The position numbers and the translations under genes are program-made. A DNA stretch of 64,000 nucleotides from Sedimenticola sp. (GTDB taxonomy: Bacteria > Pseudomonadota > Gammaproteobacteria > Chromatiales > Chromatiaceae), in assembly GCA_002869585.1 (NCBI GenBank), contig PKUO01000003.1:62001-126000 (forward strand). Reading direction: 5' to 3'. Below the pieces are notes generated by a model. That model made no database searches. It had not been told where the DNA came from and saw only the letters and a list, made by a program, of their open reading frames with translations. Below are positions 4,165-10,379 of the stretch, piece after piece (the first letter of the stretch is position 1; every line of letters begins with the position of its first letter).

Positions 4165-5901
4165 ATGACGACACAGTTACATATTGCCGTCGGTCAACAT
4201 TCCGACAAAGGTCGCAAACCACTCAACCAGGATTTTCATGCGGTGATGATTCCGCAAGAACCAATGTTGAGCGCGAAGGGTATCGCGGTGGCCCTTGCCG
4301 ATGGAATCAGCAGTAGTTCGGTCAGCCAGATCGCCAGCGAAACCTCGGTCAAGGGCTTTCTGGATGATTACTACTCCACCTCGGAATCCTGGTCGGTAAA
4401 GACCTCGGTACAGCGCGTATTGCATGCCACCAACTCGTGGCTCTATGCACAGACCCGTAGTAGCCCCTACCGCTATGACATTGACCGTGGGTATGTCTGC
4501 ACCTTAAGCGCATTGGTGATCAAATCCACCACCGCGCACATCTTTCATGCTGGCGACTCGCGGGTCTATCGTCTCATTGACAATCATCTGGAACAGTTGA
4601 CTGCTGACCATCGTCTGTGGGTGTCACGCGACAAGAGCTATCTCAGTCGCGCTATGGGCATGCGCGATCGATTGGAGATTGATTACCAGGCACATGTCAT
4701 AGAGGTTGGCGACATCTTTGTTCTGGCAACAGATGGCGTCTATGAATTTATCGAGGACTCCTTCGCTGTTGCCATGATCAGGAAACACCATGACGATCTC
4801 GACCTGGCAGCCAGATTGATTGTGGATAAAGCCCTGGAGAGAGGAAGCACGGACAACCTGACAATCCAGATTGTACGCATCGATCAATTGCCGCATCGCG
4901 ATATCGACGAACTGTATCAGCAGGTATCAGCCCTGCCTTTTCCACCGGAACTCCAGCCGCGGATGGAGTTCGATGGCTACCAGATCATACGCGCCATTCA
5001 TAACAGCAGCCGAAGCCATGTCTATCTGGCAGTTGATATGGAATCAAAGCAAAAGGTCATACTCAAAGTTCCATCTGTCGATCTGCGCGATGACTCCGCT
5101 TATCTGGAGCGTTTTTTAATGGAGGAATGGGTGGCGCGGCGCATTGACAATGTCCATGTGTTGAAACCCTGCAAACAGACACGCAAACGCAACTACCTCT
5201 ACATCGTCACCGAGTATATAGAAGGTCAGACCTTAACCCAGTGGATGACCGACAATCCAAATCCTGATCTGGAAACGGTGCGCAACATCGTCGAGCAGAT
5301 CGCCAAGGGATTGTACGCGCTGCACCACCAGGAGATGCTGCACCAGGATTTAAGACCCAACAACATCATGATCGACACAACGGGTACAGTGAAACTCATC
5401 GACTTTGGTTCTGTGAAGGTTTCCGGCATAGCCGAGATTGGTAACTCCGGGCAGCAACACATTCTAGGAACGGCGCAGTACACCGCGCCTGAATATTTTC
5501 TGGGTGAAGCAGGAACGGTCCGCGCGGATCTGTTCTCGCTCGGCGTGATCGCTTATCAAATGTTATCGGGGCGTCTGCCCTATGGAACACAGGTTGCCAA
5601 GGCCACCAGCAGAGCAGCACAACGCAGGTTGCTTTATCAATCGGCGCTTGATGATGAACGCACCATTCCTGCATGGATCGATGAAACGATACGCAAGGCC
5701 GTCCACCCCGACCCTTACAAACGCTACGACGAGATATCGGAATTTGTACATGACCTGCGCCAGCCCAACCGCAGATTTGTCTATAAGAACCGTCTACCAT
5801 TGCTTGAGCGTAACCCAATCATGTTTTGGAAAGGGCTGTCGTCAATCCTATTTTTCCTGATTGTAATTTTGCTGAGTACTCATCCCGTGTTTACTCAATA
5901 G
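4165..5901 (+). CDS. Fused PP2C-type phosphatase and Ser/Thr protein kinase with C-terminal membrane anchor
   Basis: A 578-residue bifunctional signalling protein. Residues of about 5-240 form a PP2C domain with metal-binding motifs NQD (21-23), ADG (D46), GDSR (D131), ATDG (D190) and DN (230-231). Residues of about 270-535 form a eukaryotic-type kinase with Lys301 in VILKVP, HQD at 393-395 in the catalytic loop, Asn400, DFG at 413-415 and an APE motif at 441-443. The catalytic loop reads HQD instead of HRD. A hydrophobic segment at about 557-572 anchors the C-terminus in the membrane. Similar fusions lie beside nirBD and nitrite/nitrate transport genes in pseudomonads, so a role in nitrite/nitrate assimilation is inferred; its substrate is unknown. 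It starts 6 nt after a terminator. Confidence 0.9.
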   Translation: MTTQLHIAVGQHSDKGRKPLNQDFHAVMIPQEPMLSAKGIAVALADGISSSSVSQIASETSVKGFLDDYYSTSESWSVKTSVQRVLHATNSWLYAQTRSSPYRYDIDRGYVCTLSALVIKSTTAHIFHAGDSRVYRLIDNHLEQLTADHRLWVSRDKSYLSRAMGMRDRLEIDYQAHVIEVGDIFVLATDGVYEFIEDSFAVAMIRKHHDDLDLAARLIVDKALERGSTDNLTIQIVRIDQLPHRDIDELYQQVSALPFPPELQPRMEFDGYQIIRAIHNSSRSHVYLAVDMESKQKVILKVPSVDLRDDSAYLERFLMEEWVARRIDNVHVLKPCKQTRKRNYLYIVTEYIEGQTLTQWMTDNPNPDLETVRNIVEQIAKGLYALHHQEMLHQDLRPNNIMIDTTGTVKLIDFGSVKVSGIAEIGNSGQQHILGTAQYTAPEYFLGEAGTVRADLFSLGVIAYQMLSGRLPYGTQVAKATSRAAQRRLLYQSALDDERTIPAWIDETIRKAVHPDPYKRYDEISEFVHDLRQPNRRFVYKNRLPLLERNPIMFWKGLSSILFFLIVILLSTHPVFTQ

Positions 5902-6396: not shown

Positions 6397-6452
6397 CCTG
6401 CCGGGCCGCAATCACAAACCCATAGGGATTTGAATCAATATGGCCCGGCAGG
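6397..6452. repeat. Long inverted repeat between convergent cynS and fccB
   Basis: CCTGCCGGGCC at 6397-6407 is repeated in reverse complement at 6442-6452, with a smaller AAACCC/GGG(A)TTT stem inside the loop. It occupies most of the 87-bp gap between two convergent genes. No long T-run follows on either strand, so it is at best a weak bidirectional terminator or an mRNA-end stabiliser. Confidence 0.55.
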
Positions 6453-6470: not shown

Positions 6471-7766
6471 TTACTCCAGCATGTCGTTAATGACGTTTTT
6501 GAACCAACTGTGGGCGTAACTCACTTCACGCTTGCGTATTTCGGGGCTGGCATTGGCCGGCGACACGCCACCGGAGTTCGGTACGGGTTCAATGGTGTTG
6601 GTACCGGCATCGAGACCATAGACCGCAGCCACCGAGATGCCAAACTCTTCACCCACCACGCTGTAGCAGGTATTGACGAAGGTAGGATCGCCCGGCTCCA
6701 AGCCATGAAAACGACTCACTATCGCCGCCGCAGCCACTTTTGCCTGGGAATTGGCGGCATAGGCCGATTTAGGCATCTTGGCGGCGCTGGAGGCGTCACC
6801 AAGCACATAGATATCCTTATGCCGTAGAGACTCGAAGGTGCGTTTGTCCACCGGACACCAGTCGCCGTCAACCAGATCAGCAGCAAAGGCGATGGCGCCT
6901 GCCTTTTGTGGCGGAATGATATTCACCACATCACCCTGAAACTCCTCGATCTCTGCCTGAATGGTGAGCGTTGACGGGTCAAGTGATTCGACCTTGCCAC
7001 CGCCGGCGGCCCCCACCCATTCAATCATGCTGTTGTCGGTGCCGTAGCCGTAGAGTTTGGTCCAGCCCTCGACATAGAGGCCCTGCTTGGAGAAGGCATC
7101 CTTGGGATCGAGGATGATGATCTTGGCGCCTGGCTTGTGATGCTTGCAGTACATGGCGATCTGCGAGGCGCGCTCATAAGGACCAGGCGGGCATTTGAAT
7201 GGATTGGGCGGTGCGACAATGATCACTCGACCGCCTTCGGGCATAGCCTCGATCTGGCTACGCAGCATCTGGGTTTGAGGACCGGCATTCCAGGCATGAG
7301 GGACAGTCTCCGCGACCTCCTCGTCATACCCCTCGATTGCCCCCCACTTGAAACCTATGCCGGGGGAAACCACGCAGGCGTCATAATCGAAACCCTTGCC
7401 GCCAGCCGTTTGAACCGTCTTTTTCACCGGATCGATACCGACTGCAGTATCTCTGACCACCTCCACGCCATAACGGCGCAGACCATCGTAGCCAAAGGTG
7501 AGTGACTCAAGTGTGCGCTCGCCACTCAGCACCTCGTTGCTCATTAAGCAGGCGGTGTAGCTAGGCTTGGTTTCGATCAGGGTCACGGCGACGGTCGGGT
7601 CCAGTTTGCGCAGGTACTTGGCAATGGTGCTGCCGCCGACGCCGCCACCGACCACGACGACGCGTCGCGCCGCCCCCAGGGCCAGAGAGGGAAAGCCAAT
7701 GGTTGCACCGAGTGCGGCTACGCCACCGGCTGCACGGATAAATGCTCTGCGATGAATATTAGTCAT
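6471..7766 (-). CDS. fccB: Flavocytochrome c sulfide dehydrogenase, flavoprotein subunit FccB
   Basis: A 431-residue periplasmic flavoprotein that oxidises sulfide and passes electrons to the FccA cytochrome. The N-terminus has a twin-arginine signal (HRRAFIRAAGG). A GxGxxG FAD loop follows (VVVVGGGVGGS). All three key cysteines are present: Cys73 in TACLMSNEV (expected covalent FAD site), and the redox pair Cys192 (FKCPPGPYERAS) and Cys367 (VNTCYSVV). The ATG at 7766 is chosen over an upstream TTG because it has a GAGG ribosome site and a compact Tat signal. It starts 23 nt after fccA, the cytochrome partner, in a three-gene operon. Confidence 0.95.
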   Translation of the reverse strand: MTNIHRRAFIRAAGGVAALGATIGFPSLALGAARRVVVVGGGVGGSTIAKYLRKLDPTVAVTLIETKPSYTACLMSNEVLSGERTLESLTFGYDGLRRYGVEVVRDTAVGIDPVKKTVQTAGGKGFDYDACVVSPGIGFKWGAIEGYDEEVAETVPHAWNAGPQTQMLRSQIEAMPEGGRVIIVAPPNPFKCPPGPYERASQIAMYCKHHKPGAKIIILDPKDAFSKQGLYVEGWTKLYGYGTDNSMIEWVGAAGGGKVESLDPSTLTIQAEIEEFQGDVVNIIPPQKAGAIAFAADLVDGDWCPVDKRTFESLRHKDIYVLGDASSAAKMPKSAYAANSQAKVAAAAIVSRFHGLEPGDPTFVNTCYSVVGEEFGISVAAVYGLDAGTNTIEPVPNSGGVSPANASPEIRKREVSYAHSWFKNVINDMLE

Positions 7767-7789
7767 GGTTCTATTCCTCAACGCCGGTT

Positions 7790-8386
7790 TCAATGCTGGC
7801 TGCCGTAGTAATTGATGAGGGCGGGGATAGATTCCTGGCCCTCGTCTGCAATAGCCGCGTCGACCTTACGCTTCATTTTACGCGGCCACTCGCGCTTTCC
7901 ATTGAGGAAGTCATCCATAGTGTATTCCAGGTAGGGCATCCACTGGCCTGCCAGGGTACCGGCGTCACTGGCGCGGCCGCCGTTCTCATGGCACTTCTCG
8001 CAGTGTTTCTTGTGTAACTCCGCGCCCCGCGCAGCCAATGCCGCGTTGAAAACCTGAGGCTTCAGGTACAGTCGCTGGCTGGCGAAGAACCAGGCCATGT
8101 CCTTTATTTGTTCATCACTGTAGCCTTTGGCGATGCGGTTCATGATGGTGGCATTTCGCAGATCCATCTTGTAGTCCTGCATCGCGTCAATGAAGACCTC
8201 GGGGTCCATGCCGGCGATAGCGGGCATCGAAGGCCCCGCGCTGGAGCCGTCGGTGCCATGACAACCGGCACAAGTGAAGGAAAGCGCCTGTCCGGATGGT
8301 CCCGCCAAAACGGTCGCCGGAAGCAGCACCAGCATGGCCAGGAGTAGATAGCGAACGCTCTTGATCATAGTGTCGTCTCTCTGCAT
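7790..8386 (-). CDS. fccA: Flavocytochrome c sulfide dehydrogenase, diheme cytochrome subunit FccA
   Basis: A 198-residue exported diheme cytochrome c. A Sec signal peptide (hydrophobic LLLAMLVLLPATVLA, cut near residue 28) precedes two class I heme sites, CAGCH at 39-43 and CEKCH at 129-133. It carries electrons from FccB to the periplasmic cytochrome pool. A GGAGG ribosome site lies 7 nt before the ATG at 8386, which supports this start over the Met at residue 7. The gene sits between the multiheme-cytochrome b fusion upstream and fccB downstream. Confidence 0.93.
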   Translation of the reverse strand: MQRDDTMIKSVRYLLLAMLVLLPATVLAGPSGQALSFTCAGCHGTDGSSAGPSMPAIAGMDPEVFIDAMQDYKMDLRNATIMNRIAKGYSDEQIKDMAWFFASQRLYLKPQVFNAALAARGAELHKKHCEKCHENGGRASDAGTLAGQWMPYLEYTMDDFLNGKREWPRKMKRKVDAAIADEGQESIPALINYYGSQH

Positions 8387-8399
8387 GTTCTGTCCTCCA

Positions 8400-10379
8400 T
8401 CAGGCCGGTGAAGTCATCAGGCCGATTAACACCAGGGTGAGCAGGGCCAGACCGGCCATGATCAACACACTGGTGATAAAGGAGGCCGCCAGGTCGGCAC
8501 GCCGCGAAGGACGCTTGACCAAACATTTTTCCAATTCACCACTGGCAAGAAGCCGCTCATATTGCATACGGTGATCGTGCTTGAACTCCTCTATGGGGAT
8601 AGCTCCGGTGAAGATGGTAGTACTCATCGGGAAACGCTCTGGTCGGAAATGCACGTTAAAGAAGTGCACCGAGTTGAGGAAGATCGCTGCCAGTAGAGCC
8701 TCTTCAGCATGGACCAGGGTTGCGATATTGAACATCCAGCCCGGCAGAATGAGAGCGGTCTTCTCCGGCATGAACAGCATAAGTCCGGATGTTCCAATGA
8801 TTGCTGCACCCCAGAATGGCGCCCAGTAATCAAACTTCTGCCAATAGGTCCAGTAGGAGAATTCCGGGCGCGGACCGCGACCAAGGAACCACTTGAACAT
8901 ACCGCGCAGATCCTGCCAGTCCTTCCAGTTGGGTAACATGGACGTGCAGCCAAACCATTCGAAGGTTTTACGCTTGCGCCATATGTTGCTGAGGGCAATG
9001 ATCAGGTGGGTAATGAAGATGCCCAGCCAGATCACGGCTGCAGTACGGTGGATGATGCCTTCCATCTCCACACCGCCAAGGAACAACACCACCGCTTTGG
9101 CCCAATCGGTATGCGCGAACAGCAAAGTGGTACCGGTCAGGATCAGGGTCATGGTGGAGATGGCAAACAGGCCATGGATCCAACGCCAGACGGCGGGGAA
9201 GCGGCGGAAGTAAACCACATCGGGCTTATCCAGGTCCTCATTGAAGCCCTTGCCCTGAATACGATCCATCACCTCGCGGTAGAGCCACAGCATCACATGG
9301 ACCCAGAAGAAGGCCATCACGCTGAAGATCAGTATCTGCATGAAGATTTTGAAAGCCCACAGACCAGGGTAGTTTTCCCTGTCGTCTGCATCGCCGTGCG
9401 GCCAGAAGGTCAGGAAATTCTCGTTCGCCTCGGCGTGACAGACCCGGCAATTCTCCAGGCGATTATTGGCATGGATCTCCGATGTCGGATCATCCTCGCC
9501 CTTGATCTCGTGGCTGCCGTGGCAGTCATGACACTTGGCCGTGTTGGTGTAACCCAAACGATGCACCTGACCATGATAGGAGTCAAAATAGGTGCGCTGT
9601 TCTTCCTTGTGACAATCACCGCAATTCTTGGTGATCGCCAGCTTGGCCTTGTCGGTCTCCGGGGAGTCGATAGCATGGGTGGTGTGGCAGTCGGAGCACA
9701 CGGCCGATTCGCTGTTCTTCTCTTCCAGGACCGCCTTGCCATGATCGGATGTGCTGTACACCTCCAGTTGTTTTTCATGACAGCGCCCACAAACCTCGGG
9801 GTTTTTCAGCCGTTTCTCGGCGCGCTGAATGCTGCCGAGTTCGCCGACATTGTGCGCTTCGTGGCAGTCGTAACAGGTAGCATTGGTGCGGGATTGATCC
9901 AGCGCGTTGGGCTGGGCATGGATCGACTGCATGTAGCTGCCGATCGACTCATTGACCACCTTGAGCCGCTCATGCTTGCCTGTCGGGTCTTCCTTGAACT
10001 CGTCCCAGGTATCCCTGTGACATTCGATGCAGCCAACGATTACTTCAGGCGCCTCGCGGTGCGGCACTCGGTCGATAGTGACATGGCAGCTGTTGCAGCT
10101 CTGCTCGCCGTGCACGCTCGCCTCGATCTCCTCCTTATGGACAAAGATCTTTACCGGACTACCATCATCGCGGACATCCGTCTTTTCATTCTCATCGCCA
10201 TGACAGGTCAGGCAACGCTCGTTGGGAATGATTCGTTTACCGGTTTCGGGATCGAAGTTGTGAATCATCAGCTCGCCGTCCGGCTCCGCCGATTCGGCGT
10301 AGACCGCAGGCATGATGAATAGGCTGAGGAGTACCACCCAAAGGCAGGCTACTCGTGTAGATGCTATTCGTCTTGGCAT
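8400..10379 (-). CDS. Nonaheme cytochrome c fused to a cytochrome b-type membrane domain
   Basis: A 659-residue protein. A signal peptide (about 1-29) precedes nine CXXCH heme sites, with first cysteines near residues 56, 95, 117, 169, 197, 228, 253, 283 and 311. A membrane part from about residue 342 follows, with several hydrophobic helices and histidines in the pattern of a b561-type quinol-linked cytochrome (for example WRWIHG, IIHRTAAV, LVHAEEALL, NSVHFFNVHF). The likely role is electron exchange between the quinone pool and periplasmic cytochromes, but the direction and partner are inference. It is the first gene of an operon with fccA and fccB, 13 nt before fccA. The ATG has a GGAGGGG ribosome site. 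I do not recognise a named family member. Confidence 0.88.
   Translation of the reverse strand: MPRRIASTRVACLWVVLLSLFIMPAVYAESAEPDGELMIHNFDPETGKRIIPNERCLTCHGDENEKTDVRDDGSPVKIFVHKEEIEASVHGEQSCNSCHVTIDRVPHREAPEVIVGCIECHRDTWDEFKEDPTGKHERLKVVNESIGSYMQSIHAQPNALDQSRTNATCYDCHEAHNVGELGSIQRAEKRLKNPEVCGRCHEKQLEVYSTSDHGKAVLEEKNSESAVCSDCHTTHAIDSPETDKAKLAITKNCGDCHKEEQRTYFDSYHGQVHRLGYTNTAKCHDCHGSHEIKGEDDPTSEIHANNRLENCRVCHAEANENFLTFWPHGDADDRENYPGLWAFKIFMQILIFSVMAFFWVHVMLWLYREVMDRIQGKGFNEDLDKPDVVYFRRFPAVWRWIHGLFAISTMTLILTGTTLLFAHTDWAKAVVLFLGGVEMEGIIHRTAAVIWLGIFITHLIIALSNIWRKRKTFEWFGCTSMLPNWKDWQDLRGMFKWFLGRGPRPEFSYWTYWQKFDYWAPFWGAAIIGTSGLMLFMPEKTALILPGWMFNIATLVHAEEALLAAIFLNSVHFFNVHFRPERFPMSTTIFTGAIPIEEFKHDHRMQYERLLASGELEKCLVKRPSRRADLAASFITSVLIMAGLALLTLVLIGLMTSPA

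Follow-up and report, generated by a model that had tools for sequence, protein, structure and literature searches.

Inner-membrane cytochromes in which an N-terminal multiheme c-type domain is joined to a cytochrome b are known from metal respiration. CbcL of Geobacter sulfurreducens is such an inner-membrane quinone oxidoreductase and is required for the use of low-potential acceptors (PMC9129911). Together with MtrH and MtoC it was grouped into a family of quinol oxidases or quinone reductases that is found in 15 phyla, occurs in Fe(III) reducers and Fe(II) oxidisers and carries 3 to 23 N-terminal CX2CH sites, nine in CbcL (PMC6295460). For the flavocytochrome c sulfide dehydrogenase FccAB, the role in Allochromatium vinosum is described as unresolved; the genes Alvin_1092 to 1095 were all strongly induced on pyrite, and Alvin_1095 is associated with a 4-heme cytochrome (PMC11267869). 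In a stretch of 64,000 nucleotides from Sedimenticola sp. (assembly GCA_002869585.1, contig PKUO01000003.1, positions 62,001 to 126,000; hereafter the window), a gene for a nonaheme cytochrome c fused to a cytochrome b is followed by fccA and fccB. This arrangement was found to be fixed in the clade to which the cytochrome belongs, and we consider it fairly likely that their products form a single electron-transfer unit: a periplasmic sulfide:quinone route whose membrane partner is a CbcL-type cytochrome.

All three genes lie on the minus strand (Table 1), a detail left unstated in the initial annotation, whose short-gap gene order was borne out by distances of 13 nt between the cytochrome gene and fccA and 23 nt between fccA and fccB. 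These values follow from taking the ATG at 7766 as the start of fccB, which is probably correct, rather than the TTG at 7793. Judged from sequence, the identities of fccA and fccB are certain: both match solved structures of flavocytochrome c from purple sulfur bacteria, and FccB contains the Pfam domains PF21706 and PF09242. The FccB residues C73, C192, C367 and W421 are invariant among 10 FccB proteins from the lineages sampled. We take these residues to be functional in the A. vinosum protein, with the flavin-linking cysteine and the redox cysteine pair among them.

The nonaheme cytochrome b protein

The nine CXXCH sites of the 659-aa cytochrome, which had been predicted to share one protein with a b-type domain and do so, start at residues 56, 95, 117, 169, 197, 228, 253, 283 and 311. 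Their cysteines and histidines are invariant in an alignment of 48 rows, consisting of the window protein and 47 of 80 homologous loci. Nine further histidines of the periplasmic domain (H90, H107, H154, H176, H213, H235, H269, H290 and H328) are likewise invariant and are possible candidates for the distal ligands. Nine c-heme sites with nine additional histidines would fit bis-His ligation of all nine hemes, as described for CbcL (PMC9129911). The loci left out of the alignment include L230 (which starts at a contig end), L236 and L270, whose aligned parts have eight CXXCH without any CX3CH. Counted over whole frames, 139 of 162 homologues carry nine CXXCH and 23 carry eight; by aligned part there are 22 of the latter, 19 of them with a CX3CH motif. 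In the Rhodoferax-type relative L262 this motif aligns with the fifth heme site, which suggests an unusual heme attachment site in such relatives.

The C-terminal half matches the Pfam family Ni_hydr_CYTB at E 2.6e-5, below the gathering score. The same family is matched above that score in L101, a relative from the same order (9.9e-14), and L262 gives a weak match to formate dehydrogenase gamma models. An AlphaFold model built from the 48 rows (pLDDT 77.9, pTM 0.70) contains six long membrane helices besides the signal peptide (residues 338-374, 396-420, 437-468, 512-534, 548-577 and 626-655), and H402, H444, H557, H572 and H577 of this domain are invariant in the alignment. When the whole model was compared with known structures, a procedure in which long models can hide single domains, VIA-align placed Escherichia coli FdnI first (1kqf_C, Z 13.0 over 202 residues) and the cytochrome b of hydrogenase-1 second (Z 9.1). 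Foldseek also ranked FdnI, the gamma subunit of formate dehydrogenase N, first (E 2e-3, probability 1.00) and returned no match for the model at 0.001. It counts against our interpretation that a Z of 13.0 is still possible between unrelated bundles of helices; the fold match gains its credibility from the sequence matches, which are to b561 and formate dehydrogenase gamma families.

Nine N-terminal c-heme sites, six membrane helices and a HydC/FdnI-like diheme b domain are also the published description of CbcL (PMC6295460, PMC9129911). Because of this shared make-up, which is compared here by description, the fusion is, as far as sequence and model tell, of a known kind, the CbcL/MtrH/MtoC type of quinone oxidoreductase. 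On this point the wording of the initial annotation is not supported: the fusion is no novel architecture, as CbcL, MtrH and MtoC share the type (PMC6295460). The annotation's idea of a connection to the quinone pool gains from a predicted domain structure that is that of a quinone oxidoreductase family.

Linkage to fccAB and probable exchange of partners

Relatives of the cytochrome were detected in 123 of 210 genomes of the order Chromatiales (E ≤ 1e-10) and FccB in 166 of the 210 (E ≤ 1e-40). Forty-four loci of the window's type were taken with their flanks, three of them cut by contig ends (fccA still visible in two). In all 41 evaluable loci fccA and fccB lie downstream of the cytochrome gene on the same strand, in one case with 1.6 kb between fccA and fccB. 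The trio is also present in L190, L204 and L207, which were sampled separately (fccB of L204 is cut by a contig end), and Thiorhodococcus minor DSM 11518 (L209) carries the gene set. Two betaproteobacterial metagenome-assembled genomes (MAGs; L211 and L225) keep the order cytochrome-fccA-fccB, and in a third (L212) the cytochrome gene and fccAB are divergent; the affiliation of these three is that of the database records. The arrangement that the initial annotation had proposed to seek beside fccAB in other sulfur oxidisers was thereby recovered well beyond the window's genome.

The surroundings of the trio were compared among the 41 loci and L203, L211 and L225, with sides shorter than 900 bases omitted and some loci judged on one side only. 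Any homologue within 3.2 kb outside the trio was common to 12 of 708 different-genus pairs, against 50 of 238 pairs from the same genus. Complete linkage together with so few common flanking homologues indicates that the trio is kept while its surroundings change.

The flanks examined around 33 canonical fccB loci, hand-picked for spread from the FccB matches in the order, did not contain the cytochrome (L182 is cut close above fccA). Instead, a NapC/NirT-like tetraheme gene is located upstream on the same strand in 23 of them, including L163, L166 and L172 (family tested on one), and in most of these 23 an ankyrin-repeat protein (one example tested) is encoded between the tetraheme gene and fccAB. 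The other ten loci have the tetraheme gene downstream in one case and none in view in nine. A joint role of FccAB and the upstream tetraheme agrees with the common rise of Alvin_1092 to 1095 on pyrite (PMC11267869).

The trees of the two partners are in conflict. In the FccB tree, which omits the repeats L181, L185 and L190 and FccB matches covering ≤ 380 residues, the cytochrome-adjacent rows of the order (42, and 3 at contig ends) are set apart together by a branch supported at 100/95. The three betaproteobacterial FccB rows, 48-49% identical to the window's FccB, lie outside this set and share a long branch among themselves. The cytochrome tree unites the Fcc-linked rows (34, and 3 at contig ends), those of the three betaproteobacterial MAGs included, in a single group; the group's support in the Shimodaira-Hasegawa-like approximate likelihood ratio test (SH-aLRT) is 90 by the quick method, unstarred. 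The rows nearest to the window protein include a Sedimenticola MAG, in a weakly supported grouping. The clade is delimited by this tree; identity alone is not usable as a border, as the Fcc-linked clade includes L072 (60%) and not L075 (61%). In a topology test, the cytochrome data group the core of the clade with the betaproteobacterial rows and leave the L068/L072 group outside (100/98; approximately unbiased test, p-AU 0.015 for the alternative); the cytochrome tree of this test carries a long-branch warning for L262, L101, L104, L222 and L212. The FccB data reject core and betaproteobacteria as one clade (p-AU 0.0043) and also reject a core without the L068/L072 group (p-AU 0.0095); the FccB branch uniting the core with that group, without the betaproteobacteria, has support 94/88, unstarred. 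All these p-AU values are lenient because the groups were named after the first trees had been inspected. The simplest account of the two trees would be that the pairing formed anew, or took a new partner, at least once. From their conflict it appears that the pairing outlived a partner exchange, and as such re-pairing is hard to explain otherwise, a functional tie between the cytochrome and FccAB is suggested.

These observations bear on a rival reading, in which FccAB reduces a soluble cytochrome c as in the textbook scheme and the membrane cytochrome, linked to it by regulation only, serves some other co-induced sulfur or redox reaction. Gene order alone cannot show electron transfer, and to that extent this reading agrees with the locus. 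A linkage that outlasts changed flanks and partner exchange, and a different quinone-type cytochrome upstream of fccAB in 23 of the 33 canonical loci sampled, make co-regulation alone an improbable explanation.

Two irregular loci were also seen. In L116 (genome G181), the beginning of a cytochrome gene, which contains one TGA, is continued by fccB from residue 69 onwards; fccA and other cytochrome parts were not found in this stretch, which looks like a deletion remnant. In L181 (G008), the complete fccB is followed, at a distance of about 4.3 kb downstream, by a second, partial copy (82% identical to the window's over residues 100-440) that has no cytochrome of its own in the stretch.

In the window, the convergent ends of fccB and cynS are separated by a stable hairpin (Table 1), a possible terminator without a clear T run. 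It is absent from the three sites given by a simple terminator scan, and the consensus scans for promoters (5 found, 3.7 expected) and terminators (3 found, 4.5 expected) were uninformative. On the plus strand, at 4165-5901, a PP2C phosphatase is joined to a Ser/Thr kinase in one protein, encoded between a formate/nitrite transporter gene and the cyanase gene.

Table 1. Features of the cytochrome-fccAB locus, in window coordinates
Feature	Position	Strand	Basis
Nonaheme cytochrome c + diheme-type cytochrome b fusion, CbcL/MtrH/MtoC type, 659 aa	8400..10379	-	Nine CXXCH; Pfam multiheme and b561 matches; FdnI-like fold; 44-45% identity over about 630 residues to Rhodoferax and Ramlibacter homologues
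Probable Sec signal peptide, residues 1-28	10296..10379	-	Hydrophobic segment 10-28 ending VYA, judged by eye
Periplasmic domain with nine c-heme sites, residues 50-330	9390..10232	-	Nine CXXCH and nine other invariant His (48 aligned rows)
b-type membrane domain, six helices, residues 338-655	8415..9368	-	AlphaFold helices; FdnI match; invariant H402, H444, H557, H572, H577
fccA, diheme cytochrome subunit of flavocytochrome c sulfide dehydrogenase	7790..8386	-	Two CXXCH; best PDB match 1fcd_C, E 4e-44
fccB, flavoprotein subunit, RRxF Tat-like N-terminus	6471..7766	-	FCSD_central (3.3e-46), FCSD-flav_bind (2.5e-25); best PDB match 3vrd_B, E 1.4e-144
Stable hairpin between convergent ends of fccB and cynS	6397..6452	-	-33.6 kcal/mol, z -3.48, 0/200 shuffles equally stable

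Relatives outside the Fcc-linked clade

A more distant clade of the order, 38-42% identical to the window protein (L098-L114), adjoins octaheme cytochromes similar to hydroxylamine oxidoreductase (HAO). Of its 15 tree rows, 13 are HAO-linked and two lie at contig ends. Two of the octaheme neighbours were searched and gave IhOCC (4qo5) and HAO as best structure matches; in L101 and L110 an ammonium-transporter-like gene lies between (Pfam match run on L101). The nonaheme-b relative and the HAO-like octaheme possibly form a quinol-fed nitrogen reductase. Betaproteobacterial relatives are partly located near decaheme cytochromes, and none of the partner genes searched for was found beside the relatives in Thiocapsa and other Chromatiaceae (L217-L219). 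Over 162 rows the contexts were Fcc in 57, none in 44, contig edge in 30, HAO in 21 and Mtr in 10, counts that include some genomes twice and are not frequencies. As relatives are also found next to decaheme cytochromes and HAO-like octahemes, the family has no exclusive tie to sulfide: the cytochrome module is general, and the FccAB version is one specialisation of it. The initial annotation had named homologues consistently tied to another pathway as evidence that would contradict it. In parts of the wider family such contexts (HAO-like octahemes, decahemes) or nothing recognisable were indeed found; the window's clade, linked to fccAB, does not contradict the annotation. A link to another pathway only was thus rejected for the Fcc-linked clade and kept for relatives such as the HAO-linked clade.

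The variety of neighbours also raises the question whether the cytochrome is a general hub between quinone and periplasm, as in extracellular electron transfer, with FccAB as one of several clients and a possible connection to an MtrAB-like pair. The homologues of a Rhodoferax sp. MAG and Ramlibacter lithotrophicus, 44-45% identical to the window protein, point in this direction, their loci also encoding decaheme and NapC-like cytochromes; that of Rhodoferax sp. L262 (44% identity) encodes a further triheme cytochrome. The window genome itself encodes a DmsE-family decaheme (TIGR03508, over cut-off) directly before an MtrB/PioB-type porin (contig C85, 286804-289749; L282:6805-9750), possibly an outer-membrane electron conduit. 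This pair lies on another contig than fccAB, among the 45 genomes of the order that have the clade's cytochrome only 4 gave a match to such a porin (two over cut-off, the window's genome being one of these), and no evaluable locus of the clade lacks the link to fccAB. We therefore regard the hub as unlikely. An outer-membrane conduit was rejected as a conserved partner on the porin counts, and the outer electron carrier considered in the initial annotation appears weak as a conserved function, even though the window's genome has the pair. On contig C17 of the same genome (3566 bases, L125), genes for an octaheme cytochrome (421 aa), a triheme protein (215 aa) and a b561-type protein (277 aa) lie in a row; the last is related to the membrane domain of the window protein.

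Proposed electron route and comparison with known systems

In the proposed unit, sulfide would be oxidised in the periplasm at the flavin adenine dinucleotide of FccB, and the two FccA hemes would receive the electrons. From there they would enter the nine-heme domain and move from heme to heme as far as the b hemes of the membrane domain with its FdnI-like fold; these b hemes would exchange electrons with quinone. The CbcL-type cytochrome would stand where most sampled canonical fccAB loci have the NapC-type tetraheme; membrane cytochromes would be interchangeable on FccAB and the route assembled from separable components. That FccA docks on the nine-heme domain and that quinone is the partner is what we infer from the parts, domain make-up, gene order, conserved linkage and partner-tree conflict seen in the sequences. 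Provided that FccAB and the cytochrome are coupled, a flow from sulfide to quinone is the more probable direction, favoured by the setting in sulfur oxidisers and by the described activity of FccAB.

The unit may also be imagined in reverse, with quinol electrons passing through the cytochrome to FccAB, which would reduce sulfur or polysulfide in the periplasm. Flavocytochrome c is able to reduce sulfur in vitro. A menA match in the window genome (3.93 Mb, 109 contigs) makes a low-potential quinone likely, CbcL is treated as a quinol oxidase with a low-potential c-domain (PMC9129911, PMC6295460), and the HAO-linked relatives are, from their neighbours, probably reductive. FccAB, of which the genome encodes a single fccB (E ≤ 1e-40), is however described as sulfide-oxidising (PMC12010331, PMC11171427), and the genome resembles that of a sulfur oxidiser, with matches to dsrA and soxB (the sole soxB match, C100:26243-27970, has one in-frame TAG). 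Reverse operation thus seems rather unlikely.

Several points weigh against the proposed unit, besides the Z of the fold match. FccA has potentials near zero. In Geobacter, the CbcL periplasmic domain has a titrated potential of -194 mV (PMC9129911), and a similar value in the window protein would be low for taking electrons from FccA. No feature is described that separates quinol oxidation from quinone reduction (PMC6295460), and as the HAO-adjacent relatives presumably carry electrons out from quinol, the family may operate in either direction. Mutants of A. vinosum in fccAB oxidise sulfide at wild-type-like rates (PMC11267869), so that FccAB need not be a main route. Two relatives from outside the clade, L216 and L222, likewise have fccAB at a distance of up to about 4 kb, on the opposite strand, and the window genome also encodes an MtrA/MtrB-type pair. 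The open-access literature searched contained no biochemical or genetic test of this protein.

A wider proposal, which we put forward only tentatively, is that FccAB in general is the catalytic head of a modular quinone-linked sulfide complex rather than a soluble sulfide:cytochrome c reductase, with a CbcL-type nonaheme-b arm in one lineage and a NapC-type tetraheme arm in the other. If FccAB delivers to quinone, electrons from sulfide could enter ahead of the bc1 complex; for many sulfur bacteria, and for symbionts like Candidatus Thiodiazotropha, a different energy yield would then be expected. Substantial FccAB expression is reported for the latter, the fccAB copy concerned not being discernible (PMC11171427). 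A family known from metal respiration would be extended to sulfur oxidation, and Thiorhodococcus minor DSM 11518, as a carrier of the gene set, opens a way to a genetic test.

Among known systems, the Alvin_1092-1095 operon of A. vinosum agrees with the window locus in its FccA diheme and FccB flavoprotein, with the cysteines that we take to be catalytic kept. Loci of the A. vinosum type differ in having mostly a NapC-like tetraheme, often also an ankyrin-repeat protein, instead of the nonaheme-b fusion. Sulfide:quinone reductase (SQR) would catalyse the same net reaction if sulfide electrons reach quinone through FccAB. SQR is a single flavoprotein that meets quinone itself, whereas in the FccAB route a cytochrome chain would stand between flavoprotein and quinone. 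CbcL, so similar in its described make-up, donates to PpcA and serves extracellular acceptors (PMC6295460, PMC9129911). MtrH and MtoC of Rhodoferax ferrireducens, Dechloromonas and Gallionella belong by description to the same family with the same domain order, but mtrH and mtoC are located in mtr/mto clusters (PMC6295460) and the window gene with fccAB. The main text of PMC6295460 does not contain the word 'sulfide' and names one sulfur oxidiser, Sulfuricaulis, and a fixed cytochrome-FccAB partnership was not found described in the open-access literature, searched mostly at the level of listings. Compared with these systems, what appears new is the fixed FccAB partnership of the clade and not the fusion.

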